DNA from: Halomarina oriensis
GTDB lineage: Archaea; Halobacteriota; Halobacteria; Halobacteriales; Haloarculaceae
Direction: 5' to 3'
NCBI RefSeq assembly: GCF_009791395.1
Contig: NZ_WSZK01000033.1
Span: 1-40,673 of the forward strand
DNA: 40,673 bases
Positions within the stretch are counted from its first letter, which is position 1, and every line of letters begins with the position of its first letter. Of the stretch, positions 11,959 to 31,177 are shown piece after piece. The notes below the pieces were generated by a model. The model searched no databases, was not told where the DNA came from, and was given only the letters and a program-made list of their open reading frames with translations. Both the position numbers and the translations under genes were made by a program.

Positions 11959-13100
11959 TTACCCCATCACGACGAGCTTCGAGGAGACGGCGTCTACACG
12001 CGACTCCCGAGAGAGCGTCTCGATGGTGTCCCGAACTTCCTCCTCGCGCAGTCCCTTCTTCCGGAACTCCGTGACGACCGTCTCGCGGTGGACACCCCAG
12101 TCGCTTCCCTCGTCCATGTGTTCCTCGACGAACGCAACGATGCGGTCGCTCAGCTCGGCGGAGTCCGCACCGACCTCCTGGTACTCGTCGACGTCGAGGT
12201 CGAACGCTTCAACATAGGTCTTCAGCTTCGTCTCGTTCTGCTTCGGGAGCGTGTCGAAGACGCCGACGACCGTCACCCGGTCATCGACCCCCATCCGGTC
12301 ACAGAGGTCGTCTTTAGCGAACACCGTAACTGCCGGCGGACTGTCGAGTTCGGTGTCCTGTGGGATGAGGACGACCTCCTGAAAGTCGACGAGGTCGGAC
12401 TCACGCTCGTTGAACACGAACGGGCCCTGGTTCTCACAGGCGCCACAGATGCTCGGCTCGATCATCTTTCCGGCCGACTGCTTCATCCGCGTCATCGTCC
12501 CGCAGCGCTGGCACTCCCAGGCAGCCTCGCTCGCGAACGGAACGACACCTTCTGTCTCGATGACGGTGCCCGTGAGGGCGATGAGGTGGCCCAGATGCCG
12601 CGTGCGCTGTTTCCCGACCCGGTAGGTGTGTTCGGTAGGGAGGTTCCGGATGCGGACGTTGAGCCGAGCGTGGCGGCCCGCGTGCCGACGTTGGCGTTCG
12701 AGGTCCGGTCGGAGGTTGACCAGCGCTTGCTCGGCGAGGACTCGCTGCTGCCGTGGATCCTCGCGCAACTGCTCGGCGAGGCCGCGGTCGAAGTCAGAGA
12801 ACGCCGCCCAGTCCAGCCGGACCGAGCAGCGGCCGGGGCCGTACTCGTCGGCCAGTGAATCAACCGCCTCGCCCATCTCCTGGGCGAGGAACTCACGGAA
12901 GCGCTGGGCGTTCGGCGGGAGTTCGCCCTCGTCGGTCTGGTCGTAGTGTTTCGGCGAGAGGACGAATTGACACCCCCCACAGCGATGTCCCGTCCCGCCG
13001 GCGGTTTCTTGACGCACTCCCAACGTGGCTCATCGGTGCCACAGCCGGGGCAGGCGTCGATAGCGATTCCACTCTCGGTGTCGTGTGTTGCGTGGCTCAT
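11959..13100 (-). CDS. MCM-like DNA-binding protein lacking the AAA+ motor (one frameshift)
   Basis: The protein starts at ATG 13100 (MSHATHDTESGIAIDACPGC), four bases after the ATPase stop. After GTDEPRWECVKKPPAG the frame must shift by one base (near 12970-13010) to continue as HRCGGCQFVLSPKH. Joined, the parts make an N-terminal zinc ribbon (C-P-G-C and C-G-G-C). Then come the MCM N-terminal helical region and OB fold: LTGTVIETEGVVPFASEAAW, C-Q-R-C-G and C-G-A-C zinc knuckles, DLVDFQEVVLIPQ, DRVTVVGVF. The C-terminus is an MCM-type winged helix (VVTEFRKKGLREEEVRDTIE). The Walker A/B ATPase block of true MCM (about 300 residues) is absent, so it should bind DNA, perhaps as a ring, without unwinding it. 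Coupling to the HerA/VirD4-like ATPase suggests a joint DNA-handling role (inference). The frameshift may be a sequencing error. Confidence 0.75.
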
Positions 13101-13104
13101 CGAC

Positions 13105-15525
13105 TCACTCCATGAGTTGAATCTCGACTTCGTCCCAGTCGATTCGGCACACTCGCGTGCCCACAGGCGTCAGCTGGTAGAAGCCCTGTTCGTCCGTCTC
13201 GTAACACGGTGAGAGGTTGCTGTCGGGGCCACAGTGGTTCCGAAGCGTCGAGACCGGGATGGCTGGGTCGGTGAGCCGCTCGGCCCACTGGTCTTGCGTC
13301 CGCACCTCTCCTTCGGCGAGCCCTCGGCAGGCAGCGACCAACCGATCACGGATATCGGGCTTCTTGTCCAGCCAGAAGCGAATCGCGTTCGGTATCTCGT
13401 GAATCTCGATGAGTTCCTCGCGGATGCTCTTCTGGTCGACAGCGGTCAGTTCGAGGTCGCGCTGCCGGTCGGCCGCGCCCGTGCGCTGAAGCCGAAGCTC
13501 ACTCGGAATGGAATACGGTCGCCGGCGACGCAGCGCCCGTTCGAGGACGTCGCCCGGTACGACGTCGTCCGTCTCCCGCTCGTCTCGCGGTTCGTACGCG
13601 GGCAGGTCCGACGGCAGGAGATACCACGTTCCGATTGGGGGTTTGCGGTCGTCGGTTAGGGTCCGCCGGCCGGTGTTGGCCTCGACCCACCACTCCGGGC
13701 GGCCGTTCCCGGCGGTCCACTTCGCGTGTTCGCTCTCGCGGACCCGAGCGCCCCACGCGATACCGTAGCGGTCACGCCACGACCGATCACCGTACCCGAG
13801 GCCGCACGGCGCTCCCCGCCACTCGATGGGCCAGTACGCCTTCCCGTTCGCGATGATCATGCCCTGGCCAATCGAAAACTCCGAGAGCTGGCGCTGTTGC
13901 TCGTAGCTGAAGTTGTAGACCTTCCCCAGCGTGTCGATTTCGTCCTCACCGAGCTGGAGGAGAATCTTCGTTGCCATGTTCGAGCGAATCGGTTTGTAGA
14001 CGTCGTTGTACTTCTGCGTCGAGGCGAGCATCATCACCCGCCGCGAGCCACCTTGTGTCGAGAGGAAGAACAGCGTCTGCCGGAGGGGCTTGATGGCGTC
14101 CTTGTACGGAACGTCGGCCCATTTGCTCGGTGCCAACGCCTTCAGTTCCCGCAGTTCGAGACACACCCGGGGTAACCGCGAGTTCCGGTCGCGGGCCTTG
14201 AAGATGAGTCGCAGCCAGAGGTCGATGATGGTGTACTTCAGCGCCTCCTGGTCTTCTTCCATCATCGAGCAGCACAGAACAGCCGCCTGTTCCTGATTGG
14301 CGATGACACCGTCCATGTCGATGTTCGTCGCTGCATCCGGCGAGGTGATGAGCCCCTCACCGGCGAGCCGAGCCAGTTGGGCGGCCGCCTTCCGGAGTGC
14401 GTCCGCTGCGGGCATGGAGTAGGAAGCCTGGTACGTCGAGACCGAGTCACCACCTCCCTTCTTCTCGCGTATCTCGGTCCACTCGATGGTCGCGTCCGTT
14501 TCGTGCGCGTAGACCTGTAGGCGCGTCACCAACTGTGAGACGTCACCGCCGTTCTCGATGGTCTCCGACAGCGCTCGGCCGATGCGCCCCTCGATGTCGG
14601 CGTCGGACTTCGTGACGCCGCTCAGTCGAAGGACCATGTTCGGCGTCAAGCGGTCGATGCCGATAGTGAACTCCCGGAAGTTCGCTGGGAGTCGGTCGGG
14701 GACGCCCGGCATCCGCGGGACGAACACTTCAGCGTCCATCGCTCGCGGGCCCTGGCCCATTCGGTCGAGGTTCTCCTTGATGGCGGGCTCGTCGGCCGGG
14801 ACGGCCGTCATCGGCGTCTCCATCCGGCCGTCGTCGTAGATGCTGAAGTACGAGTAGCCGTGTTCACGCTTCAGGTTCATGCCAATACTCGCCAGTGTCG
14901 AATCCTTCCCGCGCCTCGGCAAGGCGACCGTCAGGATGTGGTCACACGACTGGTGCGGTATCTCGACGATACGGTCGTCGAGCGAGCGCGTCGACGTTGC
15001 CCCGACACGGATACGCCCCACTGGCGACGGTGTCTCGACGTTCGTCTGCGTCCCCGGCTCGTTGATGCCCTCCAACCGGACGGGCGCGTAGCGCGACATG
15101 TCGCGCACGCCGGCGATATACTCCTGGGCACGGGCGACCTCGACGAGTATCTTCAACTCCGTCTCCAGCCCCGGTTGCTTGCCTCGACACCGGTCGCGAT
15201 GGACGGCCCGGAAGCCGACCTGCGCCCACGGTTCGAGGTCACTCCCCGGGTGGAGGACACGCTCACGCTCGGGGTCGCACCACAGGAACCAGTGCAGCAC
15301 CCGGATGTTCTCGGCGGCCCCGACGAGGTCGTCCTCGGCGAGTGTCGTCTCGACGGCCTTGATTTTCTCCCGGACGGTCGCCTCAATCTCCAGGTTCTCC
15401 TCGTGGACACGACGCTCTGCCCGCTTCCGGATCTTGTTCTCGATGGCCGTCGATGGCGTCGTCTCGTCAGGCGACTGGATGGCACTGTACTGCTGTCGGT
15501 ACTCAAGCTGGTCGTTGGAACTCAT
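13105..15525 (-). CDS. HerA/VirD4-type ATPase (coupling-protein-like) with unusual P-loop
   Basis: 806 residues. Residues 1-180 form a helical and beta-rich N-terminal region. The ATPase core begins near 195: DHILTVALPRRGKDST holds the P-loop, in which the usual G-K-S/T is G-K-D and the first glycine is Ala. The block RVCLELRELKALAP occupies the Walker B position with Glu where Asp is usual. MLASTQKYNDVYKPIRSNMA matches the ATQ-motif region of HerA, VirB4 and VirD4 proteins. No membrane segment is seen, so the membrane partners encoded upstream must anchor it. The family pumps DNA or protein through membranes (conjugation coupling, DNA translocation). The start is preceded by the CTAACC element. 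The C-terminal 200 residues look like winged-helix or docking sequence. Confidence 0.7.
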   Translation of the reverse strand: MSSNDQLEYRQQYSAIQSPDETTPSTAIENKIRKRAERRVHEENLEIEATVREKIKAVETTLAEDDLVGAAENIRVLHWFLWCDPERERVLHPGSDLEPWAQVGFRAVHRDRCRGKQPGLETELKILVEVARAQEYIAGVRDMSRYAPVRLEGINEPGTQTNVETPSPVGRIRVGATSTRSLDDRIVEIPHQSCDHILTVALPRRGKDSTLASIGMNLKREHGYSYFSIYDDGRMETPMTAVPADEPAIKENLDRMGQGPRAMDAEVFVPRMPGVPDRLPANFREFTIGIDRLTPNMVLRLSGVTKSDADIEGRIGRALSETIENGGDVSQLVTRLQVYAHETDATIEWTEIREKKGGGDSVSTYQASYSMPAADALRKAAAQLARLAGEGLITSPDAATNIDMDGVIANQEQAAVLCCSMMEEDQEALKYTIIDLWLRLIFKARDRNSRLPRVCLELRELKALAPSKWADVPYKDAIKPLRQTLFFLSTQGGSRRVMMLASTQKYNDVYKPIRSNMATKILLQLGEDEIDTLGKVYNFSYEQQRQLSEFSIGQGMIIANGKAYWPIEWRGAPCGLGYGDRSWRDRYGIAWGARVRESEHAKWTAGNGRPEWWVEANTGRRTLTDDRKPPIGTWYLLPSDLPAYEPRDERETDDVVPGDVLERALRRRRPYSIPSELRLQRTGAADRQRDLELTAVDQKSIREELIEIHEIPNAIRFWLDKKPDIRDRLVAACRGLAEGEVRTQDQWAERLTDPAIPVSTLRNHCGPDSNLSPCYETDEQGFYQLTPVGTRVCRIDWDEVEIQLME

Positions 15526-15557
15526 TGGTTAGGTCTGTGTAGAACGTGGTTAGGTCT
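15526..15557 (-). promoter_or_regulatory. Two CTAACCA elements before the ATPase start
   Basis: TGGTTAGGTCT occurs at 15526-15536 and 15547-15557, exactly 21 bases apart. On the mRNA strand this reads AGACCTAACCA, the nearer copy running into the ATG. The same CTAACC-ATG context precedes three other genes of the array. Confidence 0.5.
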
Positions 15558-17215
15558 CAGTCGTCGGCGACGGCAATATCGGTCGCCTGCTGCTCGGGTG
15601 CAGAGACGAAGAACGGCGCACGCTGGGCGCGAAGGTCCACGTCGGGCGGCGAGTACCGAGTGTCGAACTCGCGAGCGCGGAACTCGTCGGCGAACGCCGC
15701 CTTCGTGACGGCGATGGAGCGGTCGAGTTCCTCGCTTCGGGCACGGACCGCGGTTATCTCGCGGGTCTCGCCGTTGGGACCCTCAACCTCGATGGTCTCC
15801 TCGACGAGGCCGTGGGGGACGAGGTCACGGTAGCACTCAGCGACGAGGTCAGGATCACGGCCGAAGCCGACGAAACGGAGGCCACGCCAGACGTATCGGC
15901 GGTCGTCCTCGATGACGGCGTCGAACAGCACTTCTTTGGGTATCATCCCGAGTTCGGCGTCCTGAACGCGGCCGACGAGTTGCTGGAGGACGTCGTAGCG
16001 TTCCTGGTCGCGCCACTTCCCGAGCGAGGGGATCTTGCGGCGGAGACACCACGCGAAGCGTTCTTCGAGCGCGGGCGCAGGATGCTGGCCGCGGGCGCGA
16101 TGCAGTGAGCGGGTGGCGAGGACGCTGGCGAGGCGGTCGAGGTCGGTGGAGGCGTAGCTGCGGCCGTTGACGAAGCCCATCGCCATCGTCACCTCGTCGG
16201 TCTCGACGGTCTTGACGAACACCGAGAGCTGGTCGACGGTGACGTTCGTCTCCTCAGCGCGGAGCTGGGCGAGCTTTCGCTGGTCGAGCCAGTCACGGAC
16301 CCGGTACTGGATACCCGAAACCGCGCCGGCGAGTGCCAGGAGGACCGGGTAGACCCACCACGCGACCCACAGCTGCACGAGCAGGAGTTCGGCGACGAAC
16401 AGCGCGAGCGTCGGGACGGCCCAGCGCCAGAGGATCTTCTCCTCGTCGAACGTCGTGGCGAGGTCCATCCACGCGAGCTTCCGCGTCTCGCGGTCATCAC
16501 GAACAGACGCCTCGTCAGTCTCAGCCACCTCGGGGACGGGTGCGAGACTCGTTGGCTGGAGCGCGAGTGGCTCCTTGGTCTCCGCAGGGTCCGCACGTTC
16601 GGCCAGCTTGATTTCTTCATCCGTGACGTCCTCGCCGGCGAGTCGAGCGCGGATGCGCGCTGTGAGTTCCTCGACGTCGTCGTCGTGGAACGCGATGACT
16701 CGACGCGAGCCGTCAGCGGTCTTCGCCTCCATCGCCAGCTGGTCGACGGTCGCCCGCGAGTAGCCCGTCGAGCACGCGACCTTGGTGGTGACCGTCCGGC
16801 CGAGGAGGAACAGGTAACTCCGGAAGTAGAACGCCAGCAGCAGGACGAACACCGGTCCAGAAGTACCGAAGCTGAACATGAACCGCAGGAACGGCCCCGA
16901 GGAGCCCGAGGCACCCTCGGCGTCTAGCAGTGCGTACAGCATCCCGACGACGGCGATGAACAGCCCGAGGCCGATGCCCCAGACCTGGAGACGACTGCCG
17001 AAGTCACCACCGTCGCCGAACAGCGCGTAGCGGACCCGCGCCGCCGAGCGCTGGGCAAATCCGAGCAGGGCCGAGAGACCACGACCGACCGCTCGGAGGA
17101 GTGTTCGGTGGGCCCCAGCGTAGACGCCTGCACCGAGTAAGATGAGCGCCCCCAGCGCCGCGCTGAGGACGAGCGGACTCACCGGTAGACCGGCGAGTTG
17201 CGCGGGGTCAGTCAT
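15557..17215 (-). CDS. Multi-spanning membrane protein of the export-like cluster
   Basis: 552 residues from ATG 17215, which overlaps the upstream stop (ATGACTGA). Membrane segments lie at about 13-34, 74-97, 107-130 and 235-275 (VPTLALFVAELLLVQLWVAW and following). Between them and after them lie large cytosolic domains, the last 250 residues soluble, with a winged-helix-like end (LVEETIEVEG, RSIAVTKAAFADEF). No known catalytic motif. It precedes the ATPase by about 30 bases and probably anchors it, by analogy with VirB/VirD4 membrane partners; that is inference. An in-frame extension to 17269 is Arg-rich and not used. Confidence 0.65.
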   Translation of the reverse strand: MTDPAQLAGLPVSPLVLSAALGALILLGAGVYAGAHRTLLRAVGRGLSALLGFAQRSAARVRYALFGDGGDFGSRLQVWGIGLGLFIAVVGMLYALLDAEGASGSSGPFLRFMFSFGTSGPVFVLLLAFYFRSYLFLLGRTVTTKVACSTGYSRATVDQLAMEAKTADGSRRVIAFHDDDVEELTARIRARLAGEDVTDEEIKLAERADPAETKEPLALQPTSLAPVPEVAETDEASVRDDRETRKLAWMDLATTFDEEKILWRWAVPTLALFVAELLLVQLWVAWWVYPVLLALAGAVSGIQYRVRDWLDQRKLAQLRAEETNVTVDQLSVFVKTVETDEVTMAMGFVNGRSYASTDLDRLASVLATRSLHRARGQHPAPALEERFAWCLRRKIPSLGKWRDQERYDVLQQLVGRVQDAELGMIPKEVLFDAVIEDDRRYVWRGLRFVGFGRDPDLVAECYRDLVPHGLVEETIEVEGPNGETREITAVRARSEELDRSIAVTKAAFADEFRAREFDTRYSPPDVDLRAQRAPFFVSAPEQQATDIAVADD

Positions 17216-18533
17216 CGGATGGCACCCCACCAGCGCGGCCGGTCGTCGACGGGAGCGACCCGCCGACACCGCTCTCGAGTTTCACGTTGTCGATGAGCAC
17301 TTCGAGGCGCTGGGCGGCCTCGCCGTAGCGATGCGACTGGCCGTACTGCGAGCCCATGTACTCACAGACCGACTTGACTTGCCCGAGCGCCTGGACGACG
17401 GTCATGTTCCCGTTGCGATGCACGGGTTCGAGCCACGACTTCCCGTTCCGCAGGCTCTCGACGGTGAGGTCCTCGACGCCGTAGTGGACGACCTGCGTCT
17501 CGCCGGTCTCGTCACGCTTGACGTGGCCGCGGGCCGCGAGATTCGCCAACTGCGCCGGTGAGAACGTCCCGAGGCCGTCCTCCCAGTAGACGGCGTCCGA
17601 GCCGATGGCCGGCACGTCTCGCAGCGACTCCTCATTGGCCGTCTGGACCTGCCGTTCGTTCGCCGACTTCAGCTGGTCGATCGTCCGGCGAGCCTTCCCG
17701 GGGTCGTTGTTGACGATATCGAGGATACCGCCGTACTTCCCGGCGAGGAACTTCCCCGCAAGAACGAGCAGGCCGAGGACGACCGCCCACAGGATGGGGT
17801 TCGTCCCGGCGGCGACGATGATGGCGAGCGCCTGCATCGCCTTCTGGCCGAGCCAGCTGTCGATGAGGTCCGCTCGCTCCTGGATGAAGTCGAGATAATT
17901 CTCCATCCCCTCGTTGGTACATTCGTAGCCCTTCGCCTCGGCGTCCTCACACAGCTCGGCGAGAACGGGTTCCTTGTCTTCGAGGCGGGCGGCCGCAACG
18001 CTCACGTCCGTTTTCTGGGCGTACAGCGAGACGTTCGTCGAGCTTCCATCAGTGAAGAACAGTTCGAGCGTGTAGAGGGACGCCTCGGAGTCGCCGGCGG
18101 CATCGTCGTCGTACTCGACGCGGACCTGCTGGCCCCCGGCGAGGACGTCCGCACTCGCCTTCGGCTGGCTGATGCGCGCCGCCTCCAGTGGCTCGTCGAC
18201 GTCGAGGACGACGAACGGCCCGGTCGTGTTGAACGCCTCGTCACGCTGGGTCGTCTCCACCGTCAGGAACGGCTCGGAGAACTCGACGGGCGTGATTCGA
18301 GCCCGTGAAGCGGCATCTGGCCGCCCCGAATCTGGGGTTTCACCGTAGCGATACGTGCTATTCGTCGAGTTGTTCTCCGCGACCGGCGTCGGCGTGGTCG
18401 GGGTTGGTGTGGTCGTCGAGCTATCCTGCTGGTAGTCGAGTGCCGCGGCTGGCGTGGCGAACGCACCGCTCACGAGCACGAGCAACACGAGCGCCCAGCG
18501 GATGGACGCGCGGCTCAGTGGGTTGCGAATCAT
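17208..18533 (-). CDS. Exported single-pass protein with cytosolic winged-helix-like tail
   Basis: 441 residues. Sec signal-like segment at about 10-31 (WALVLLVLVSGAFATPAAA), a Thr/Pro-rich linker, an extracellular beta-rich domain (about 75-200), a membrane segment near 240-275 (AIIVAAGTNPILWAVVLGLL), and a cytosolic tail with a winged-helix-like block (PAQLANLAARGHVKRDETGETQ). This topology, outside domain plus inside tail, fits a part of a trans-envelope machine. It ends in the overlap with the next gene, and its start is preceded by CTAACCC. No named family recognised. Confidence 0.6.
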   Translation of the reverse strand: MIRNPLSRASIRWALVLLVLVSGAFATPAAALDYQQDSSTTTPTPTTPTPVAENNSTNSTYRYGETPDSGRPDAASRARITPVEFSEPFLTVETTQRDEAFNTTGPFVVLDVDEPLEAARISQPKASADVLAGGQQVRVEYDDDAAGDSEASLYTLELFFTDGSSTNVSLYAQKTDVSVAAARLEDKEPVLAELCEDAEAKGYECTNEGMENYLDFIQERADLIDSWLGQKAMQALAIIVAAGTNPILWAVVLGLLVLAGKFLAGKYGGILDIVNNDPGKARRTIDQLKSANERQVQTANEESLRDVPAIGSDAVYWEDGLGTFSPAQLANLAARGHVKRDETGETQVVHYGVEDLTVESLRNGKSWLEPVHRNGNMTVVQALGQVKSVCEYMGSQYGQSHRYGEAAQRLEVLIDNVKLESGVGGSLPSTTGRAGGVPSDD

Positions 18534-18562
18534 GGGTTAGGTTCTGGTCTCTGGGTTCGGTC

Positions 18563-19630
18563 TCAGTCGTCGCTCGGTGCGGCTCGCTGCCGGTCCATCT
18601 CGGCGACCTCCGACTGGGAGGTCGGGTGGCGCTGGGCACCGCTCTGCTGGACGGTGTAGGACTGCTGTGGGTACATCTGTGGGAGTGACTCTTGGAGCGT
18701 CGCTATCTTCTCGGCAAGACGCTCGATCTGGTCGTCGTCAGAGAGGTTGACCTTCCGACGGAGACGGGAGATCTCCATCTGTGCCTCGCCCAGTTGGGCG
18801 TCGAGGCTCTCGGCGTACTGCTCCATCTTGCTCATCCGCTCCTCGCGGTCGAGATGCACCTCGTACGGGACCGTGATGGGCGTCCGATAGCTGTAGTGCG
18901 CCTCGGCGTCGGGGTCGATGACACCCTGCTGGTTCGTGTTCGCGCGGCGGCCACGAGTCCGGACGACCCACTCGTCGGGGCCGACCTCCGCGGCCTCCTT
19001 CGGTATCTGGTGGGTCACAGGTTCGCCGGGGAACGGCGTCTTTCCCCGCAGTGACCGGACGTCGCCGGCTAGTCGACGCTTCCCGAACAGGCCGAGGAAT
19101 CGCGTCTCGTAGGACTCAGCGACGATAGGGCGACCCTCGGAGTCCTTCTTGACGGTTCTCGTGTCGTAGTAGACGATTTCGGTGCTGTCGATGCCGCCGT
19201 CTTCGTCCTCGTAGATGACTTCGATCTCTCCGCGGAAGCGGTCCTGTCGACGGGCGGCAGCGAGGCCGATGATAGCCGCTGTGACCGCGATGGCCCCGCC
19301 TTCGAGCGCCCAGACGTACGGCAGTTCGATGGGCGCACCGCCCTTGAACGTGAAGTAGAGGTAGACGCCGGCCCCGATGACCAGCAGGTTCGCCGCCAGC
19401 CCCGCGATTTTCGCGGGCAGGGTGTAGCGGTTGAACCGCGCCCGTAGCGGGAACGCGATGGAGTACCCTGACTGGTCTTCCCGGTCGACCTGCCGCTGGA
19501 TGCGGTCGGTCGCCGTTGTGTCCTCACCGCGGTCGCCGATGACGCCGAAGCGGACGAGTGCGAACAGCGTCCCGAACAGTGCGACCAGGCCGATGAGTGC
19601 GACCGCGATGAACGTCGTGTTCAACGGCAT
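18563..19630 (-). CDS. Three-helix membrane protein with C-terminal coiled coil
   Basis: 355 residues. Hydrophobic segments lie at about 5-27, 73-93 and 108-127. A soluble region includes IPKEAAEVGPDEWVVRTRGR. A coiled coil follows near 270-325 (KMEQYAESLDAQLGEAQMEI, then QIERLAEKIATLQESL) with a Gln-rich tail. No enzymatic motif. The ATG abuts the TAG of the upstream gene with no spacer. The coiled coil suggests assembly with partners encoded in the cluster. Function unknown beyond membership of the membrane complex. Confidence 0.6.
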   Translation of the reverse strand: MPLNTTFIAVALIGLVALFGTLFALVRFGVIGDRGEDTTATDRIQRQVDREDQSGYSIAFPLRARFNRYTLPAKIAGLAANLLVIGAGVYLYFTFKGGAPIELPYVWALEGGAIAVTAAIIGLAAARRQDRFRGEIEVIYEDEDGGIDSTEIVYYDTRTVKKDSEGRPIVAESYETRFLGLFGKRRLAGDVRSLRGKTPFPGEPVTHQIPKEAAEVGPDEWVVRTRGRRANTNQQGVIDPDAEAHYSYRTPITVPYEVHLDREERMSKMEQYAESLDAQLGEAQMEISRLRRKVNLSDDDQIERLAEKIATLQESLPQMYPQQSYTVQQSGAQRHPTSQSEVAEMDRQRAAPSDD

Positions 19631-20302
19631 CTACGCGCCCTCCTCGTCTGTACTGTCGACACCGCCGTCGGTCACGGCCGCACCGGCAACGCCCGAGGAG
19701 GCTTGCTGGTCGGCAACCACCTGTGCGGCCTCATCCGCCGAGGCGACTGCAGAGGTGACGTCGGCGTTGATGCGGCGGTACAGCTCCCACCCCGTCGTTG
19801 CGAGTTCGGAGTAGTCGGGACCGTCGTTGACGAACTGGCGAATCTGGTGGCAGTTGTTCGCCGCCGCAAATCGCTCGTAGCGCTGCTGGACCTCGACGGG
19901 CTCGGCGTCCCGCTCGCGGAGTGTGTCCTGGAGGCGCTTGCGAGCCTCTCGCTCGTCGGGGTCGATGAACACCGGACAGCGCGTTCCGTAGTGGGGACAG
20001 CCCTGGCAGGCGTCCGGAAAGAACGACTCGCCGTCGTCGCGGCCGGCCTTCGTCGGTCGGCGCATGTCGTACTCGCCGACCTCGTCGCCGTCTTTCAGGC
20101 GGAGGTCGGCCAGCTCTCGCTCGATGTGAGCGAGGCGGTCACTCGACTGGAGGCTGTCGACGGTCTCCAGCCAGGCCATCGCCTCCCGCTTGAGGTTTGC
20201 GTCGGAGACGTACAGGAGGTTGTCGTGCAGGTGTTCAGCGATACGGTGGATGCCGCGTGTGCGAGCGGGTGCGCCGCTCTGTGAGGATGAGTGTTGGAAC
20301 AT
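19631..20302 (-). CDS. Cytosolic protein with C-x2-C-x5-C cluster
   Basis: 223 residues from ATG 20302. Helical N-terminus (IHRIAEHLHDNLLYVSDANL), then DACQGCPHYGTRCPVF near 108-123, followed by helical sequence containing another Cys (AAANNCHQIRQF). The Cys spacing could hold zinc or an iron-sulfur cluster. No membrane segment, so it is probably a soluble part of the complex or a regulator. An upstream in-frame extension is Arg/Ser-rich and overlaps the neighbouring gene, so it is rejected. It lies 16 bases after the 99-residue gene. Confidence 0.6.
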   Translation of the reverse strand: MFQHSSSQSGAPARTRGIHRIAEHLHDNLLYVSDANLKREAMAWLETVDSLQSSDRLAHIERELADLRLKDGDEVGEYDMRRPTKAGRDDGESFFPDACQGCPHYGTRCPVFIDPDEREARKRLQDTLRERDAEPVEVQQRYERFAAANNCHQIRQFVNDGPDYSELATTGWELYRRINADVTSAVASADEAAQVVADQQASSGVAGAAVTDGGVDSTDEEGA

Positions 20303-20318
20303 GGATGGATTGTGTCGG

Positions 20319-20618: not shown

Positions 20619-20660
20619 CGGTCGAGCCCTCTCGAAGCCGTCGAACGCCGACCAACCCAG

Positions 20661-22589: not shown

Positions 22590-22595
22590 GTTAGG

Positions 22596-23147
22596 TCAGT
22601 CACGCTCCCAGAGCGGCACGTCGTAGTCGTTCTTGATGGGCAGGCGGCCGGTCACCCGTTGCCACGTCTTGTTCACGCCCGGGTTGAGGCGAGCGAGAGC
22701 GACGAGCATGAGCGCAACACACGCGCCCGCGAGGACGAGCGTCGTCCCCAGCGAGATGACGCCGAGGAAGACGAACGTGATGGCCAGGCCGGACGCGGCG
22801 TAGAACATCCGGTCCCGTGAGGTGTCGCGGATTCCCAGCGCTGCGGGGACGGCGTCGACGTAGAACTGGATGTTGTCAGCGAGCGCTGGCGGCATCGCGC
22901 GGTCGAAGCCGAAGCCGCCGACGAACGACCGGGCGTTGCGGGCGGTCGGGCCGAGCGACCCGAGAACGGCGTAGACGACCGTGAGCGGAAGCAGGACGAG
23001 TGTCTGTGCCGTCCGCAGGAGAAACACGGTGACGTCGACGAGTGTCTCGCCACCCAGACGAGCCGTTCGTCGGGTCGCCGATTCCCAGCGTGACTTCGCC
23101 GCCTCACGGTGGTGCGTGGACTTCTCGCGGCGTTTGTCTCCCCACAT
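22596..23147 (-). CDS. Membrane protein with basic N-terminus
   Basis: 183 residues. A Lys/Arg-rich first 30 residues is followed by a membrane segment near 38-60 (VFLLRTAQTLVLLPLTVVYA) and a hydrophobic hairpin near 118-155 (AITFVFLGVISLGTTLVLAG onward). ATG 23147 shares one base with the upstream stop (TGATG). The positive-inside rule puts the N-terminus in the cytosol. Probably a structural part of the membrane complex; no homology recognised. Confidence 0.6.
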   Translation of the reverse strand: MWGDKRREKSTHHREAAKSRWESATRRTARLGGETLVDVTVFLLRTAQTLVLLPLTVVYAVLGSLGPTARNARSFVGGFGFDRAMPPALADNIQFYVDAVPAALGIRDTSRDRMFYAASGLAITFVFLGVISLGTTLVLAGACVALMLVALARLNPGVNKTWQRVTGRLPIKNDYDVPLWERD

Positions 23148-23887
23148 CACTCAGCCTCCGAGTCCGATTCGAGGAAGTCGAAGGTACCGTAGACGAACCC
23201 GTTGTACTGCGCACCCTTCCGAGCCGCATAGGTGCGTTCGGGCGTCTCGTTGGCCTCGACGTACTCGTCGGTGAACGCCTCCAGGTCGTCGGGGAGTTCC
23301 TCGGTCGCCAGGCCGGTGAGGACGATCTCTTCGTCGACGACCCGCTCGGTCGCACTCGGTTGCTGGACCTCGAAGTTCTCATAGACGAGCTGACCGTCAC
23401 GTTCGACGACGTCGGCCGTCGCGATGACGGATGTCTCGTTCTCACCCAGCCGGCAGGTGATGCGGAGGACGTCACGCGACTCGCTGGCTGTGATGCGGTC
23501 GTTGACGTACGTCGTGTAGGCCGCGCTATGCTGGTTCAGCTCGTGGTGAATGTCCTCGGCACACTCCGCGTCCGTTCGGACGGGCTCGTGCCACGGCGTG
23601 CCTTCGGAGAACGTCTCGTACCAACCGCGCTTGAGCGCTGCGTGCGTCTCGGTCAACCAGGCGGTGGCACTGTCGGTGAACGATTCGAGGCTCTCGACCG
23701 GATGCGTCACGCGGTGGGTGACGCTGGCGAGAAGCCCCCGCTCAACGTCTTCCTCGGGGGCGCTCCCAAGCAGGGCGTCGGAGATGTCGGAGTCCGCACT
23801 TCCCGCGGTCGCGGTCGTGACCCCGACAGTCGAGGTCACCACCAACACCGTGGCGAGAAGCGCGAACGCTCGCTGTGTGGATATCAT
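23147..23887 (-). CDS. Secreted protein of the cluster
   Basis: 246 residues. Signal peptide at 1-28 (AFALLATVLVVTSTVGVTTA). The mature part is helical then beta-rich and strongly acidic, with one Cys pair (C-A-E-D and I-T-C-R) that could form a disulfide outside the cell. There is no membrane anchor after the signal. A 153-base gap separates it from the upstream secreted protein. Not recognised. Confidence 0.6.
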   Translation of the reverse strand: MISTQRAFALLATVLVVTSTVGVTTATAGSADSDISDALLGSAPEEDVERGLLASVTHRVTHPVESLESFTDSATAWLTETHAALKRGWYETFSEGTPWHEPVRTDAECAEDIHHELNQHSAAYTTYVNDRITASESRDVLRITCRLGENETSVIATADVVERDGQLVYENFEVQQPSATERVVDEEIVLTGLATEELPDDLEAFTDEYVEANETPERTYAARKGAQYNGFVYGTFDFLESDSEAE

Positions 23888-24040
23888 GGATGGGTTCGTG
23901 GGCTGTTCTGAAGGCGATACGGAGTGCCCGCGGTCGGCGTGAGCGACCTTGGCGGCGTGACCGCAACGGGCGAACCAAACCTCGGCCTCACAGGCGGAGG
24001 TCAGAGTGACAGACAGGTACGAGCGAACCGCTCGGCGCGG

Positions 24041-25027
24041 TTAGAACAGCGACGGGAACTCGAAGTCGAGACCGGCCGTCGACCAGAAGCCGAAGACGTC
24101 CATCTGCTTCCAGATGCCGACGTTCGTGTTGATGAAGACCTCGTCCATGGACTCGGCGTCCTCGAAGGACTCACCGTACTCGACGACGACCGAGTCGTTC
24201 GCGACGTCGTAGACTGCGTAGGTGTCCGTCTCGGTATCGACCTCGTCAGGAACTTCTTCGTTGTAGAGGTTCGCGACGACAGCCGTGTCGTCGTTCGTCA
24301 CGAGGATGGGCACGCGCTTGATGCGCTCGCCGTCGTCTTTCTCCTCGGCGGCCATCTCCAGACGGTCGGCGGCGTCGCCGTCGTAGAAGTACGTCGTGCT
24401 CGCGTTGGCGTCAGAGCCGTTCACGGTGACGTCCTCATCCGAGATGGTGGCGAAGTTGTCCGCCGTCCAGAAGTCGAAGCCGGCGATGGAGAAGCCGTCA
24501 GTACCAAGATCGACGAACTCCGAGGCGTTCCCGACCGTCCGGGCCGTCTGGGCACCGGGTGCCGTGTGGGTCAGCGTGAGCGTTGAGTTGTCGAAGACCG
24601 CACTGCTGTTCGACAGTTCGATGTCGACGGTCTCGTTGCCGACCTGGTTGATGATTTTGTTGTTGCCGGTCTCGACAGCGACGATGTCCGTCGCGGCGAC
24701 CGCCTGCGTCGTGTCGAGCGTGACGGTCATCGTCGAGGTACCGGTGTTCTTCACTGACGCGATGTCGGCATCGACACCGGCGATGGAGACGTTGACGTCA
24801 GCTGCGTTAACGCGCTGGACGTCGGACTGCTCGTAGTCGATGACGACTTTCTTCAGGTCGCCCGCTGCGGAGGCGTTGATGTCGTAGGCGTGGTTCGTCG
24901 CCGTCAGTGCGGCGGTGCTATCCTGGGTCGCAGTGGTGGTCGCTGCACCGGCCATCCCACCCGTCATGATGACGGCGAGAACGGCCAGCGCGGCTACGAT
25001 ACGTGTGCTGAAGCTGTTGCTGAACAT
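24041..25027 (-). CDS. Secreted acidic surface protein (S-layer-like character)
   Basis: 328 residues. Sec signal at 1-30 (IVAALAVLAVIMTGGMAGAA) and a Thr/Ala/Asp/Val-rich mature chain with at least seven N-x-S/T sequons and no Cys, the makeup of haloarchaeal surface glycoproteins. The tail is aromatic (GIWKQMDVFGFWS, FEFPSLF) instead of a membrane anchor, so it may self-assemble or bind a partner. Gaps of about 150 bases on both sides suggest its own promoter; a TATCACC sequence near 25063 is the best candidate. Possible roles are pilus or particle coat subunit. No family named. Confidence 0.6.
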   Translation of the reverse strand: MFSNSFSTRIVAALAVLAVIMTGGMAGAATTTATQDSTAALTATNHAYDINASAAGDLKKVVIDYEQSDVQRVNAADVNVSIAGVDADIASVKNTGTSTMTVTLDTTQAVAATDIVAVETGNNKIINQVGNETVDIELSNSSAVFDNSTLTLTHTAPGAQTARTVGNASEFVDLGTDGFSIAGFDFWTADNFATISDEDVTVNGSDANASTTYFYDGDAADRLEMAAEEKDDGERIKRVPILVTNDDTAVVANLYNEEVPDEVDTETDTYAVYDVANDSVVVEYGESFEDAESMDEVFINTNVGIWKQMDVFGFWSTAGLDFEFPSLF

Positions 25028-25177
25028 GTGAATCTTTAGTGGAAACGAAGGGGTTGATCTGTCGGTGATACATCGGAAACGCGGTGTCTCAGCGGTGTAG
25101 AGGCGGTGGGACGCACGGTGGCGGCCACCGGGTCCAGCGTTGGGGTGGCGGTCGATCCTCTCTGGTCAGGCCGGCCA

Positions 25178-25948
25178 TCAGAACCAGCCCCACGGGTCGA
25201 GCGAGATGTCCGCGTTCCCGGCGTCGTCGAGGCCGAACCACGACCAGAGCTTGATGAGACTCGTCTGGTTCGAGCCCTCCTTCCACCAGCTCGGCCGCGC
25301 GTGCATCACGGCCGGATCGGCGATGGCGTCCTGGTGGATGGACGTCCAGCCGTCGTCGTACCACTCCTCCAGCGCGGTCGTGCCGTCGGTGAGCTCGATG
25401 AGGTCGCCCTCCTCGCGCGTGAGCGTGTAGTGATGGTGTGGGTTGAACGGGTAGAGCAGTGGCCGGCCCTCGCTGTCGGCCTGCCACGCCGCGGCCGTCG
25501 CCCGGAACCAGTGGTAGCCCGCGTAGTCGACGCGGAGGACGTCACCGAACTGGCCGTCGTCCTGGCGAACCGTCACCAGCACGGGCTCGTGGTCGCCCCA
25601 GTGAGAGTCCGAGAATAGACCGTACCCGCTGAACCAGCCCGTCTGCCGACGGTACTTCGTCCAGTACGAGAGGACTGCGTAGGGCTGGTCGGCGTACTCG
25701 GCGACGTACGACGCCATCTCGATGGGCTTCTGTTCGAGGTGGCCCGTCGCGAGCCGAGGCTGGTAGCGCCGTAGCAAATCCTCGTCGTAGTAGGTCGAGA
25801 CGTACTCGGGGACGCCACCGAACAGCGTGCCCGCCGCAGCGCTGGTCGAGGTCGTGCGTGCCGCCGACCCGAGCATCGTGCTCACGGTGACGGTCCGGAG
25901 GAAGCGACGGCGAGTGACACCGCTGGCGCTGGAGTGTGTTTCTGTCAT
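25178..25948 (-). CDS. Tat-exported protein of unknown function
   Basis: 256 residues. Twin-arginine signal RRRFLRTV at about 13-20 followed by a short hydrophobic stretch and AAAG, so it is exported folded. The mature part is rich in Trp, Tyr and His (GYGLFSDSHWGDHEPV, FNPHHHYTL, ARPSWWKEGSNQTS), which could form a metal-binding or hydrolase-like site. I do not recognise the family. The start follows a CTAACC element 22 bases after the protease gene. Co-export with the subtilisin suggests linked roles at the cell surface. Confidence 0.6.
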   Translation of the reverse strand: MTETHSSASGVTRRRFLRTVTVSTMLGSAARTTSTSAAAGTLFGGVPEYVSTYYDEDLLRRYQPRLATGHLEQKPIEMASYVAEYADQPYAVLSYWTKYRRQTGWFSGYGLFSDSHWGDHEPVLVTVRQDDGQFGDVLRVDYAGYHWFRATAAAWQADSEGRPLLYPFNPHHHYTLTREEGDLIELTDGTTALEEWYDDGWTSIHQDAIADPAVMHARPSWWKEGSNQTSLIKLWSWFGLDDAGNADISLDPWGWF

Positions 25949-25970
25949 GGTTAGGTTTCTGAGTTCGTGG

Positions 25971-27584
25971 TTAGACCCGCCACTTCGCCCAGCCGAACAG
26001 CTTGCGAGTGCCGTGCCAGTTGCCGCTCAGCCCGCGATTGTACGCATCACGCCCGTCGGCGGCGTCGTTCTGGACCGCTATCTGTGCCTTCTCACTCGGT
26101 TGGTTCTCGAGCGCCCGCTCGAGGTGGACGAGCCCACCGGGGCCGACCTCGGTCTCGCCGGCTCCCTTCAGGCGGGTGCCGGTCGTCACGAGTCGGTCGC
26201 GGACCTGCTTCGCGTTCAGCGATGGGTCCTCAGCGCGAAGGATACCCGCGTAGGCGGCCACCGTCGGCGTCGCCATCGACGTACCCGAGAGTGTCACAGC
26301 GCCGTCCGGTGTGGGCGCTGTCGTATTCATCCCCGGGGCAGCGATATCGGGCATCGCACCCTTCGTCCGTGCGCCGGAGAAGTCACCGAGGCCGCTGTCG
26401 GGACCGACACACGAGAAGTAGGCGCTCTCGGCGGCGACTGCGCCGCCCATCTCCTCGGTGGGAGCGTTCGTCGCCGTCACTGTCAGAACACCCGACGCCC
26501 GGAGGTCGCCCGGTGAGCCGATCCACCGCGTCGACTGGCGAGAGTTGCCCGCCGCGATGGTGAAGACGACGTCCTCCTTGTCGATGGCGTCCTCGATGAG
26601 GTCCGCCTGCTGCTCGGCGTAGATCGAACTGCCCAGCGACATGGAGACGACATCCGCGTTCTGCTCGATAGCCCACTCGATACCGTTCGAGACCGAAACC
26701 GTCGAGCCGCTGCCGTCGTCGCTCAGGACCTTGGCGATGAGGAGGTCTGCACCGGGTGCGTGGTCGTGGATACAGCCCGCACACCAGTCACCGTGGCCGT
26801 TCCCGTCTTCGATAGGGGTGTAGTCCCCACCGGCGGGGTCGGCCTCGGTATCCTCGACCGCGTTGTAGCCGGCGACGACCGAGTCGCCGTACTGCGCGTT
26901 GTCGTAGGTGAGACCAGTGTCGAGGATGGCGATGCGTGCGCCGGTGCCGTCGGGTTGGCCGCTACCACCGGTGAGCTCACGGACGCGTTGCATGTCCGCC
27001 TCCGGAGCGTTGGCGTTGTAGGCCACGCCCTCCGTCGTCCACTCGCCGTTATCGCCGAACCAGCCCCACGCACTCGAGAAGCCACCGGCCCACCAGCCGC
27101 CGGGAGCCTCCACGGCGTCTGCGGCGAGGTGTTGACTCGGTAGGAGCGGCTCGACGATCTCGACGCCGAGGTCGAAGTCGACGTGTTCGACGACGCTGAT
27201 GTCCTGGAGCTTGTCGTCGCGGTCCCACCACCCCTGGAGGACGTCGAGCATGGGGGCGGCGACTGTCGCCCGACCCGTGTCGCCGTCTCCGGCGACCGAC
27301 TCTTTCACCGAGAGAAGCTCGCGTCCGTCGATGTCGCGGACCCACTTCTCGATGTCTTGGGTCCCGTCACCGCGGTTGTCGAACCGCACCGAGAAGATGG
27401 GGTTGCCCATCTCCGAGCGCCGCACCGTCTCGGGGAGGTTCAGGTCGAACCACCCGTCGGTCCCGCGAATCGCCGGCGAGAGCGCACCATTGTCCGCCCG
27501 CGCCGGTCGAGGACCAGCGGCGAGGGTTGCGGCCGTCGCGCCCGCACCCGCGAGGAACCCACGGCGAGAGACGCTGTCGGTCAT
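25971..27584 (-). CDS. Tat-exported subtilisin-like serine protease
   Basis: 537 residues. Tat signal SRRGFLAGAGAT at 6-17, a long N-terminal region to about 200 (propeptide-like), then the S8 catalytic domain with the full triad: D222 (AILDTGL), H264 (GNGHGDW), S436 (SGTSMATP) and the oxyanion N347 (AAGNS). Folded export through Tat is the rule for haloarchaeal halolysins. Here the protease lies inside the gene array, overlapping the surface-protein stop (ATGA), so it may mature or release the secreted partners, or open the S-layer during transfer; this is inference. The tail after 490 lacks the usual pre-peptidase C-terminal domain. Confidence 0.9.
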   Translation of the reverse strand: MTDSVSRRGFLAGAGATAATLAAGPRPARADNGALSPAIRGTDGWFDLNLPETVRRSEMGNPIFSVRFDNRGDGTQDIEKWVRDIDGRELLSVKESVAGDGDTGRATVAAPMLDVLQGWWDRDDKLQDISVVEHVDFDLGVEIVEPLLPSQHLAADAVEAPGGWWAGGFSSAWGWFGDNGEWTTEGVAYNANAPEADMQRVRELTGGSGQPDGTGARIAILDTGLTYDNAQYGDSVVAGYNAVEDTEADPAGGDYTPIEDGNGHGDWCAGCIHDHAPGADLLIAKVLSDDGSGSTVSVSNGIEWAIEQNADVVSMSLGSSIYAEQQADLIEDAIDKEDVVFTIAAGNSRQSTRWIGSPGDLRASGVLTVTATNAPTEEMGGAVAAESAYFSCVGPDSGLGDFSGARTKGAMPDIAAPGMNTTAPTPDGAVTLSGTSMATPTVAAYAGILRAEDPSLNAKQVRDRLVTTGTRLKGAGETEVGPGGLVHLERALENQPSEKAQIAVQNDAADGRDAYNRGLSGNWHGTRKLFGWAKWRV

Positions 27585-30500
27585 CGCAGGTCACCTCGGC
27601 GGCGTCCGACCAGCGGAACCAGCAGGCCAGCGAACACGCCCTCCGTCGGTGTGACGGTCAGCGGCAGGAGGCCGGTGATGGACCCCAGCGAGATGTTCGG
27701 CGTGATACCTGCCAGCCAATGCGTGAACCGGTCCAGGAAGCCGGGGTCGTTGTTCACCTGGACGGTGAGCGTCCCGTCGTCATCGGTCTCGGTCGTGATG
27801 GACGTCCCCGAGTTGGTCTCGGTGACCTGGCCGTAGCCGTTCGAGCCGGGCATGCGCAGGACCTCTCCGTCGCCGCGGTAGAGCAGTGCGTTCTCGGCGA
27901 GCGTCCCCGTGTGAACGACGACGCCGACCGACTCGTTCAGCGCTTCCTCGGTCGGGCCCTCGACGACCGAGAGCGAGACCGTGTGGTCCGGGGCGACCGA
28001 GAGGCCACTAAGGTAGACGTGGACCTGGCTCGGAACGTCGCCTGTCGGCGTGACCGCGGTGATGTCGATGTCCTGGTCTCCCTCGCTCAGTTCGAGCGAG
28101 CCGCGTTCTAGACCACCACCGACGGCGAGGTGTCGTCCGGTCGGACCGGAAACGGCCATCACACGCGCCACATCGGGCTGGTCGGTGTCGGTAGCCTTCA
28201 GCCGGTAGGTCTGGGAGAACTCCGTGTTCTCCGTGTTCGTCCACGTCGCACGGATGTGGTAGTACCCAGAGCCGTTCGTAGCGAACTGAGCGGTCTTTCC
28301 ATCGAGCGTCGTCTGGAGCTCCGTGGCGTCGGGTGCGTGGATCGTAACGTTCTGCAGGTCGTTGAACACGGCCGGGTCCTCAGGCGTCAGCTCCATCGTG
28401 ACGATTTCGTCCGGGCCGGGTTCGAGCGTCGAGAAGCGAGTCGACGCCAGCGAAGGCGTCTCGCCCCCGAACGCCGGGTTACTTGCACGCGTGTTCGCAC
28501 TCCCGAGGTCGGTCTCGGTGGCGACATCGTAGCGAAGTTCGACACCCGGCGCGTTGCCGATTGGGTAGTCCTCAACGGAGACACGCGTCTCGGTCGTCTC
28601 CAGCCCGAAGTTCGGCGACTGGTCGAACGAGAGGTACTCCGCGGGCACGGGTGCCGTCGTCCCGTTGGCGAAGTGGGCGGTCACCATCACCTGGTCGGGG
28701 TCGAGCGGGCGGGTGAACGTCGCCCCGCCGTTGAACAGTCCGTCCTCGTCGATGTCGGCGACTGGATCCTGGGCTTCGATGCTGCCCTGGAGTTCCGTGA
28801 TGGCCTGCTGGAGCGACTCGATGCGCTCGCGCTGCTCGGCGTTGTCCAGCCCGGAGATGTTGACGTTGACTTGTGGGTTCTCGATACCTGTCCGGTTCTC
28901 CAAGATAGCGCGGTAACGGTCTCGGAGTTGTTCGTTCGAGTCCGAGAGGTTCTGCATCTGGCCGTGGAGTTCGTCAAGGCGCTCATCAGACGTCTCGTTC
29001 AAGAGTTGCTGCATCGCGGACGGGAGGTCACCGAACGAGCCGTTCTGCAGGTTCGAGAGCCACACCTCGAATTGCTCGTTGACCTCACCGTAGCGCCCAC
29101 AGAAGTCTGGGGAGCGGGCCTCGACCATCGTCAGTTCGACAGACGAGTTGGGGTTCTGGGGCACCTGCACGCGCTCAACCTCCGTCGGCGAGTAAAAGGA
29201 CGAGCGGAGGTTGACTTGCTCGCACATCGCGCTGAAGTTCTGGTAGTTCAGCGTCGACGGGTCGACACCGCTCGGAACGCTCGACTCCGGAACCTTGAAC
29301 GCGTAGACGCCCACGGTCTTGAGGTTCTCGTCGGCGATGTCGAAGCTGAAGCTCCCGTTGGCGTTCGTCGTCGTGGTGACGCGGGTGAACACGCCGTTAT
29401 CGAGGTACTCCTGGACCTGCTGGGACTGCTGGCTGAGCTGGCCGTCCAGCGTCGGGAGGTCCGGCGAGATGAACGACGAGGCGTCGCCCACGCGAATCAT
29501 GTACGACGTCCCAGTTTCGCCGTCGACTCGGGGAGTCACCTTGTAGTGGCCCGCCGGAAGCGTGTACGTCGCGTACTGCAGCGTGTCGGGGTCGAGGAAC
29601 GTCGATCCACTCGATTTGTTCAACTCCAGTTCGACAGGCCCGTTGATACCCTCGTTCGAGGGGCCGACCTGCTCGATGACCACGGTCGCTTCGGAGAGGG
29701 AGGTCCCGGGCAGTTGGCGGTCCCACTCACTGGTCTGGATACCGAACGTGCCGGTGTTCGTGGGGTCCCACACGGTGAAGATAGCTGGTTCGCCCTCGCC
29801 GAGGACGACCTGCGGCTCTGAGATGTCACCCTTGTCCAGCACGGCAGGGGCGGTGTTGATGCCCGTCTGGGAGACTGCGACGTAGTTCGCGTCTGCCGAG
29901 GAGAACAGGCCGTCGTCCTCGACGAGGCTGAAGCCATCATCCATCTGCGTCCGCCAGTCACTCGGCACCTTATCGGCAACCGACTGCAGCGTCTGCCGAG
30001 CGTTCGAGGTCGTGTCGGCGACCGAACCGCGGTTGACCTCCGGATGGGAGTAGTCCACCGCGTAGCCGACGACCTGTGCGCCAGACACGGGGGAGCCGTC
30101 TGTCGTCTTTACGACCCCGGAGATGTCGCCAGTCTGAGACTGTGAGAAAGAACCAATAGTGTGTTTGGTAGCCGCACGGACCACCGAAGCCGAGGGATGG
30201 GGTTGATATTCGTTCAGAACACTGCCGCTGGCCCCCGAATCCTCTATCTCAACGACGTTTCCGTTATCCAATCCAATCCAGAAACCAGACGAATCGGACC
30301 TCAGCGCGATCTCAGTATATTGGTTTGCCTCGCCGGGGAGGGATACCTGCCAAACCTGATCCCCCGTTTCAGCATCTATCTTTCTCGAAGTGCCATCATA
30401 CGAACCTGTGTAAACATAGTCTCCAGATTTGTCGGTCCAAACTGCCGAAACTGTTGTCGTATGACCACTAAACGACCACTTTTGACTCCCGTTCGATGCA

Positions 30501-31177
30501 TTTAGCGCCCGGACCGTGCCATCCTGCGAAGCGGTGTAAACAGTCGAACCGTCTGGCGAGGGAGATACCGAGTCTACATATCCGGTGTGTCCAGTGAACG
30601 ACCACAGTTCACTCCCGTCCGAGGCATCCAGCGCCTTTACCGTTTGGTCAGCAGAAGCAGTGTATACGACCGACCCATCAGGGGACGGAGCAACGGACAT
30701 GACATTGCTCGTATGTCCAGTGAACGACCACAGTTCACTCCCATTAGATGCGTCCAGCGCCCTCGCCGTAGCATCTTTAGACCCTGTGAAGACGGTCGAA
30801 CCATCGGGGGAGGTAGTAACAGATGAAATGGTACTCGTATGTCCAGTGAACGACCACAGTTCACTCCCGTCTGAAGCATCCAGCGCCTTTACCGTGTCGT
30901 CGGAGGACCCCGAGAATACTGTCGAACCATCGGGAGAAGCGGCAAGGCCGAGTATAGGAGCCGAATGACCAGTGAATGACCACAGTTCACTCCCGTCTGA
31001 AGCATCCAGCGCCTTTACCGCGCTTTCGGAAGATGTGAACAAGACCCCTCCGTCGGCAGATTGTATATTGCTGGTCGAAGCCTGTGCCCCTGCTGGCACG
31101 AACGCCACAACCCCGCCAGTAATTATTAACAAAGCAAGAACGCACGACGCGACTCGGGAGTCTATCAGCCGACTCAT
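27581..31177 (-). CDS. Giant secreted WD40/PQQ-propeller plus fibre surface protein
   Basis: 1198 residues from ATG 31177. Signal peptide at 1-33 (VASCVLALLIITGGVVAFVP). A beta-propeller at about 45-330 is built of 42-residue repeats such as VKALDASDGSELWSFTGHT. Next comes a carboxypeptidase-regulatory-like domain near 345-400, a long beta-rich region with sequons, a coiled coil near 735-845 (RLDELHGQMQNLSDSNEQLR), more beta domains, and a hydrophobic C-terminus ending in VGRRRGDLR that looks like a membrane anchor. It should stand on the outer surface. The propeller part is lower in GC than the rest. It opens the minus-strand array. A bait or adhesion role in cell contact, or a coat role, is inferred. 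Confidence 0.7.
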   Translation of the reverse strand: MSRLIDSRVASCVLALLIITGGVVAFVPAGAQASTSNIQSADGGVLFTSSESAVKALDASDGSELWSFTGHSAPILGLAASPDGSTVFSGSSDDTVKALDASDGSELWSFTGHTSTISSVTTSPDGSTVFTGSKDATARALDASNGSELWSFTGHTSNVMSVAPSPDGSVVYTASADQTVKALDASDGSELWSFTGHTGYVDSVSPSPDGSTVYTASQDGTVRALNASNGSQKWSFSGHTTTVSAVWTDKSGDYVYTGSYDGTSRKIDAETGDQVWQVSLPGEANQYTEIALRSDSSGFWIGLDNGNVVEIEDSGASGSVLNEYQPHPSASVVRAATKHTIGSFSQSQTGDISGVVKTTDGSPVSGAQVVGYAVDYSHPEVNRGSVADTTSNARQTLQSVADKVPSDWRTQMDDGFSLVEDDGLFSSADANYVAVSQTGINTAPAVLDKGDISEPQVVLGEGEPAIFTVWDPTNTGTFGIQTSEWDRQLPGTSLSEATVVIEQVGPSNEGINGPVELELNKSSGSTFLDPDTLQYATYTLPAGHYKVTPRVDGETGTSYMIRVGDASSFISPDLPTLDGQLSQQSQQVQEYLDNGVFTRVTTTTNANGSFSFDIADENLKTVGVYAFKVPESSVPSGVDPSTLNYQNFSAMCEQVNLRSSFYSPTEVERVQVPQNPNSSVELTMVEARSPDFCGRYGEVNEQFEVWLSNLQNGSFGDLPSAMQQLLNETSDERLDELHGQMQNLSDSNEQLRDRYRAILENRTGIENPQVNVNISGLDNAEQRERIESLQQAITELQGSIEAQDPVADIDEDGLFNGGATFTRPLDPDQVMVTAHFANGTTAPVPAEYLSFDQSPNFGLETTETRVSVEDYPIGNAPGVELRYDVATETDLGSANTRASNPAFGGETPSLASTRFSTLEPGPDEIVTMELTPEDPAVFNDLQNVTIHAPDATELQTTLDGKTAQFATNGSGYYHIRATWTNTENTEFSQTYRLKATDTDQPDVARVMAVSGPTGRHLAVGGGLERGSLELSEGDQDIDITAVTPTGDVPSQVHVYLSGLSVAPDHTVSLSVVEGPTEEALNESVGVVVHTGTLAENALLYRGDGEVLRMPGSNGYGQVTETNSGTSITTETDDDGTLTVQVNNDPGFLDRFTHWLAGITPNISLGSITGLLPLTVTPTEGVFAGLLVPLVGRRRGDLR
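30591..31001 (-). repeat. 126-bp tandem repeats encoding propeller blades
   Basis: The same sequence block (CCAGTGAACGACCACAGTTC and following) begins at 30591, 30717, 30843 and 30969, exactly 126 bases apart, with a decayed copy at 30465. DNA identity is much higher than protein conservation needs, so copies were recently exchanged or amplified. Confidence 0.8.

Follow-up and report, generated by a model that had tools for sequence, protein, structure and literature searches.

The densely packed minus-strand gene array of this Halomarina oriensis contig is very probably the plasmid-vesicle module of a pR1SE-type plasmid, with a role in vesicles. Such plasmids have been termed apHPVs, i.e., plasmids potentially transferred in self-encoded plasmid vesicles, for which the defining features are six marker ORFs and a pair of syntenic clusters (PMC10818511). 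The window, by which we mean the whole stretch of DNA analyzed, is one entire contig of 40,673 nt from an assembly of 4.07 Mb in 50 contigs, and its segment 13105-31848 on the minus strand is the counterpart of ORF5-ORF9 and ORF14-ORF25 of Halorubrum lacusprofundi pR1SE. A sequence-only reading of the same DNA had suggested an undescribed haloarchaeal export, conjugation, or vesicle system, and its question is settled by the assignment to the pR1SE type: the pR1SE-like vesicle route that it envisaged finds support in genes that are directly homologous to those of pR1SE and collinear with them, and the term export fits only insofar as structural proteins of vesicles are meant. The system is not undescribed, because pR1SE was described in 2017, and Lucking et al. 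generalized the block to 41 apHPVs in 2023 (PMC10818511).

Contact-free transfer of pR1SE in vesicles carrying plasmid-encoded proteins has been reported (PMC10818511; PMC10384203). As the authors of the 2023 paper themselves say, vesicle transfer has been shown for pR1SE only (PMC10818511), and by analogy with pR1SE the present element may be transferred in the same way. Three features that go beyond the 2023 paper look new, namely a motor-less MCM beside the ORF25 ATPase, a conserved topoisomerase-like flank, and a larger conserved block; with these two overlooked conserved neighbors of the ATPase and the larger block, the choice of plasmid DNA and its movement into vesicles become testable.

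Gene Array and Collinearity with pR1SE

About 17-18 closely packed genes were found on the minus strand at 11959-31848, in line with the approximately 17 read previously. They are listed here with the gene that flanks them on the plus strand.

31321-31848 (start approximate), minus: ORF5 homologue; phmmer against pR1SE, E=1e-8; HMM family in 8 of 14 plasmids at equal position
27581-31177, minus: ORF6, giant Sec-exported protein with N-terminal WD40 propeller and apHPV-specific C-terminal region; phmmer against pR1SE ORF6, E=1e-88
25971-27584, minus: ORF7, Tat-exported subtilisin-like protease (S8); Pfam Peptidase_S8, 1.6e-37; TAT model; pR1SE ORF7, E=1.5e-39
25178-25948, minus: ORF8, Tat-type exported protein; pR1SE ORF8, E=2.6e-9; HMM family in 14 of 14; RRRFL motif read in the sequence
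24041-25027, minus: ORF9, Sec-exported putative coat protein; pR1SE ORF9, E=1.3e-7; HMM family in 14 of 14
23147-23887, minus: ORF14, exported protein; HMM family in 14 of 14 at equal position
22596-23150, minus: ORF15, membrane protein; HMM family in 12 of 14 plasmids
22247-22603, minus: ORF16, small membrane protein; syntenic phmmer matches in 7 of 14 plasmids
21309-22250, minus: ORF17, Sec-exported vesicle protein; pR1SE ORF17, E=7.5e-45
21030-21308, minus: ORF18, small membrane protein; HMM family in 14 of 14
20734-21033, minus: ORF19, small membrane protein; pR1SE ORF19, E=1.8e-7; HMM family in 14 of 14
20319-20618, minus: ORF20, small soluble protein; the only one of 608 window ORFs to match an ORF20 model trained without the window sequence (E=0.0016)
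19631-20302, minus: ORF21, vesicle-associated in pR1SE; pR1SE ORF21, E=5.7e-17
18563-19630, minus: ORF22, membrane protein for which a beta domain and a coiled coil are predicted; pR1SE ORF22, E=1.3e-33; in 14 of 14 plasmids
17208-18533, minus: ORF23, exported, membrane-anchored protein; pR1SE ORF23, E=6.6e-65
15557-17215, minus: ORF24, polytopic membrane protein; pR1SE ORF24, E=5.6e-49
13105-15525, minus: ORF25, P-loop ATPase; 40% identical to pR1SE ORF25; phmmer E=4e-173
11959-13023 (start uncertain), minus: MCM derivative, MCM_N and MCM_OB without AAA+
9694-11277, plus: topoisomerase-like (TOPRIM-type) protein; homologous gene in pR1SE at 28254-29834; conserved on the flank of the cluster

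The protein types that had been read from the array were recovered. Hydropathy predicted transmembrane segments in seven ORFs (five in ORF24, three each in ORF22 and ORF19, two each in ORF23 and ORF15, and one each in ORF16 and ORF18), where at least six membrane proteins had been claimed, and N-terminal hydrophobic signals in ORF6, 9, 14, 17, and 23 account for the several Sec-exported proteins. The two Tat-exported proteins, one of them a protease, correspond to the ORF7 subtilase (Tat model) and ORF8 (RRRFL), and the giant surface protein corresponds to the exported, WD40-containing ORF6, which has been proposed as the major plasmid-vesicle protein in pR1SE. The C-terminal part of ORF6 without WD40 still matched pR1SE (E=2.6e-46), so that the homology is independent of the WD40 repeats. 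A NEP1-like fold has been given for the ORF8 family (PMC10818511). Conservation of ORF8 and ORF9 was weak in single-sequence comparison, and for ORF16 direct phmmer matches alone were used because HMM iteration drifted into ORF17. Structural models of ORF22 (pLDDT 65.8) and ORF24 (pLDDT 64.6), both of modest confidence, gave no PDB match at E<=0.001, and a phage-scaffold match of ORF22 was rejected, being within the coiled coil and below the cut-off.

Comparison of all window genes with the ORFs of 14 related plasmids yielded one-to-one pR1SE homologues for ORF5-9, 14-19, and 21-25, and all 16 genes tested were collinear with pR1SE and on one strand, an arrangement that is therefore not due to chance. 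Every core ORF of pR1SE (6-9, 17, 21, and 23-25) has a homologue in the window, with phmmer E-values of 1e-7 to 1e-173. An apHPV is recognized by at least five of the six markers ORF6, 8, 17, 21, 23, and 24; all six were found here, as judged by phmmer against pR1SE and not by the published HMM thresholds. The two apHPV gene clusters are present in conserved order, as are the ORF7 subtilase (Pfam S8) and, by homology, the packaging-type ATPase ORF25, both of which are apHPV features. Some HMM families were trained on the plasmids that they score, which makes their E-values partly circular, and gene position and order provide the independent evidence.

Recurrence of the set as a block had been named as a check, and we found that the genes travel together in each of the 14 related plasmids that were inspected; the sole rearrangement seen was that of ORF6, which is placed differently in Halorussus vallis, and a scattered distribution was not seen. 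Conservation and synteny extend to ORF14, 15, 18, 19, 20, and 22, and the block is thus larger than the ten published genes. The region between ORF9 and ORF17 has been called highly variable (PMC10818511); ORF14 was present there in 14 of 14 relatives and ORF15 in 12 of 14, and ORF18, 19, and 22 were each present in 14 of 14. Both pR1SE (KX687704; host Halorubrum lacusprofundi R1S1) and pR1SE2 have the core genes in the order and strand of the window, and members of the apHPV group of 41 elements, such as pHTUR05 and pHALXA03, likewise carry both clusters with the ORF9-17 stretch between them. The nearest relative by path on the ORF25 tree is plasmid unnamed4 of Halorussus vallis XZYJT10, to which most cluster genes (for example, ORF6, 8, 15-18, and 21-24) also had their best match in single-sequence comparison but which, unlike the window, has ORF6 after ORF8 and a full-length MCM as well. 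The best megablast hit to plasmid records had 72.6% identity over 6% of the block, which indicates that the element is no near copy of any record in the plasmid collection searched.

ORF25 ATPase and Its Distribution

The single translocase ATPase of the sequence-only reading is ORF25, an ATPase-like protein in which the motif PRxGKDST is invariant among 15 homologues. ORF25 had no Pfam match, and its identification with a solved translocase by sequence profile was rejected, the one match being implausible. VirB4 and TrwB are among the proteins with which the fold of ORF25 has been compared in the literature (PMC10818511), and the proposed packaging role of ORF25 is derived from this comparison and from its absence from vesicle proteomes. 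With tblastn, ORF25 was detected in 15 haloarchaeal plasmids including pR1SE (38% identity over 99%), all of which were typed as non-mobilizable. In addition, ORF25 was found at 14 loci of the genome collection and in 27 of 391 sampled genomes of the class, representing 17 of 86 genera, and is single-copy in its own genome. On a Natronorubrum daqingense plasmid (22558-24225), a second, partial ORF25 directly follows the first and precedes the MCM derivative.

Motor-Less MCM Derivative

The protein encoded next to ORF25 consists of an MCM N-terminal domain, with a zinc Cys4 site and an OB fold, and a C-terminal winged-helix-like tail, in keeping with the earlier description of a DNA-binding MCM derivative: MCM_N and MCM_OB were its only matches. 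The Cys4 site and OB fold are common to the N-terminal domain of haloarchaeal and viral MCM replicative helicases; unlike these, the derivative has no AAA+ motor. In an alignment of the window protein and ten homologues (about 313-355 aa), with a 704-aa full-length MCM as a control, the AAA+ motor with Walker A/B was absent from all 11 copies, in each of which the OB fold is directly followed by the short winged-helix-like tail. Since the motor is missing, the derivative cannot act as a helicase alone, and this corrects the published reading of the ORF25-adjacent MCM as a replication helicase in every copy aligned.

With few exceptions, elements that carry the MCM derivative, pHTUR05 and pHALXA03 among them, have it directly downstream of ORF25. 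Among the matches listed in the class survey, all 16 places that match the tail adjoin ORF25 on the same strand, and the lower-scoring matches stop short of the tail and are nearly all in much longer frames, like ordinary MCMs. The distance to ORF25 is within about 120 nt, with the exception of Natronorubrum daqingense, where the partial second ORF25 intervenes. On the ORF25 tree, the trait requires one change, with support of 100/100, whereas shuffled labels required 9.9 on average; the root of the tree is unsure, so this one change may be a gain or a loss. pR1SE and its branch of the tree are without the MCM derivative, and hence it is not essential for vesicle transfer in general. Upstream of the window copy, at 12930-13110 on the minus strand, zinc-ribbon-like halves (CPGC..., ...CGGC) lie in different frames, which suggests a frameshift, natural or from assembly, in an N-terminal extension that is absent from the homologues.

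Topoisomerase-Like Flank

At least 11 of 14 plasmids encode a homologue of the plus-strand protein at 9694-11277 next to the cluster or not far from it. They include pR1SE, whose gene is convergent just downstream as in the window. About two-thirds of elements have this protein as a flank of the cluster. Of the full-length copies in the class survey, nearly all were located near ORF25; that of one genome was not. PHROG 6247, annotated as DNA topoisomerase, matched 12 of 12 members, and phage proteins, several of them annotated as topoisomerase, aligned at 25-31%. By eye, the motifs EK...GxG...DxDxxG are TOPRIM-like and resemble Topo VI-A/Spo11, and the putative catalytic tyrosine (5Y-CAP) was also assigned by eye only; on this reading, TOPRIM-like motifs would be common to the window protein, the phage DNA topoisomerases of PHROG 6247, and type IIB enzymes (Topo VI-A and Mini-A). 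Direct hhalign comparison with haloarchaeal Topo VI-A did not establish the protein as a Topo VI-A, as the probability of 4% was not significant although the alignment spans the expected DxD, and the topoisomerase label is therefore tentative. Mobile-element forms of Topo VI-A-type enzymes such as Topo VIII and Mini-A are known (PMC8185306). The 2023 apHPV paper makes no mention of a topoisomerase (PMC10818511).

Proposed Mechanism and Alternative Explanations

We suggest a division of labor between the two clusters. Cluster 1 (ORF6-9) would provide the exported coat, the protease, and the membrane-interacting proteins of the vesicle, and cluster 2 (ORF17-25, here together with ORF14-16) would provide membrane proteins and the ORF25 ATPase, which may recruit plasmid DNA and drive it into the budding vesicle; the vesicle would then carry the plasmid into another host, with no need for contact between cells. 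As for the motor-less MCM, it may not be a replication helicase but may serve ORF25 as a DNA-binding adaptor or loader, and the topoisomerase-like protein of the flank may prepare DNA for packaging or replication. These two suggested roles are much less certain than the identification as an apHPV, and the adaptor idea derives solely from the fixed adjacency and co-inheritance with ORF25. It is a doubtful generalization that in one major apHPV branch a motor-stripped MCM ring has become the fixed DNA-binding partner of the packaging ATPase, in the place occupied elsewhere by a relaxase or small terminase, with a plasmid-specific topoisomerase-like helper.

A role in replication, through origin binding or modification of the host MCM, is at least as likely for the MCM derivative as an adaptor function, and taken by itself has not far from an even chance; it competes with the adaptor idea alone. 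N-domains of MCM are known to bind DNA and to assemble into rings, and mixing with the host MCM is conceivable; Orc1/Cdc6 and PolB genes are present on the same contig. The 2023 paper, which found no conserved replication module in apHPVs, treated MCM (n=20) as a likely replication gene together with Cdc6 (PMC10818511). On the other hand, the derivative has its place at ORF25, with which it is co-inherited, and not at Orc1/Cdc6 or the polymerase gene.

As for the array as a whole, a degenerate, non-functional apHPV remnant kept on a secondary replicon is improbable: many incomplete relatives have been reported (PMC10818511), the MCM derivative has a possible N-terminal frameshift near 12930-13110, and the contig is linear, but all core ORFs are intact and full-length, unlike those incomplete relatives, nearly all of which have one cluster only (PMC10818511). 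Conjugation, which the sequence-only reading had also considered, found no support, and a T4SS-like cell-contact system with ORF25 as coupling protein is very improbable. The VirB4 and TrwB folds of the published comparison might point to it, as might a VirB2/TrbC match of ORF19, which we rejected as evidence of a pilin since it was weak (E=0.036) and confined to one of 14 family members; moreover, pR1SE transfer is contact-free, the 15 plasmid relatives are non-mobilizable by typing, and, as had been noted by eye, no VirB or relaxase family exceeded the Pfam cut-off in the array proteins scanned. We attach hardly any weight to an enveloped virus or provirus, to which the infection-like life cycle of pR1SE and the virus-type proteins elsewhere on the contig (PolB and integrase) could be ascribed, given that no ORF25 relative was found among 50,697 phage records or on any IMG/VR contig and that, as the earlier absence of a capsid protein would predict, neither a capsid homologue nor a structural PHROG at a credible score was found at the sequence level.

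Remainder of the Contig

Outside the array, the following genes of the element were identified.

3952-5262, plus: tyrosine recombinase/integrase, related to integrases of 8 of 14 related plasmids, that of pHTUR05 included
36026-37030, plus: Orc1/Cdc6 replication initiator; NCBIfam TIGR02928, 7e-55, above cut-off
38366-40549, plus: family B DNA polymerase (NF004418 type); NCBIfam, 1.6e-294

Unlike pR1SE, the window has an MCM derivative next to ORF25 and encodes a PolB of its own, and its Orc1/Cdc6 gene lies on the other side. The contig is linear in the assembly, and no terminal direct repeat was found that would mark a closed circle; the perfect palindrome of 56 nt with which it ends on the right (40618-40673), and of which the assembly has no second copy, is either an assembly fold-back or a genuine terminal structure. 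A 35-nt repeat (89% identical) lies on both sides of the Orc1/Cdc6 gene, at 35949-35983 and 37300-37334, and possibly represents origin elements. A type B polymerase resembling that of the window is encoded on the Natronosalvus amylolyticus apHPV plasmid, and a weakly RadB/Rad51-like ATPase gene (37143-38093, plus) is located just upstream of the window polymerase. A C-5 cytosine DNA methyltransferase is encoded at 6508-8019 (plus), with no restriction partner among the neighboring genes scanned. Two tandem archaeal type IV pilin-like genes at 32686-33776 (plus) have a common 147-nt segment with 95% identity, and related pilin genes are found on pHTUR05 and on the Natronosalvus halobius plasmid.
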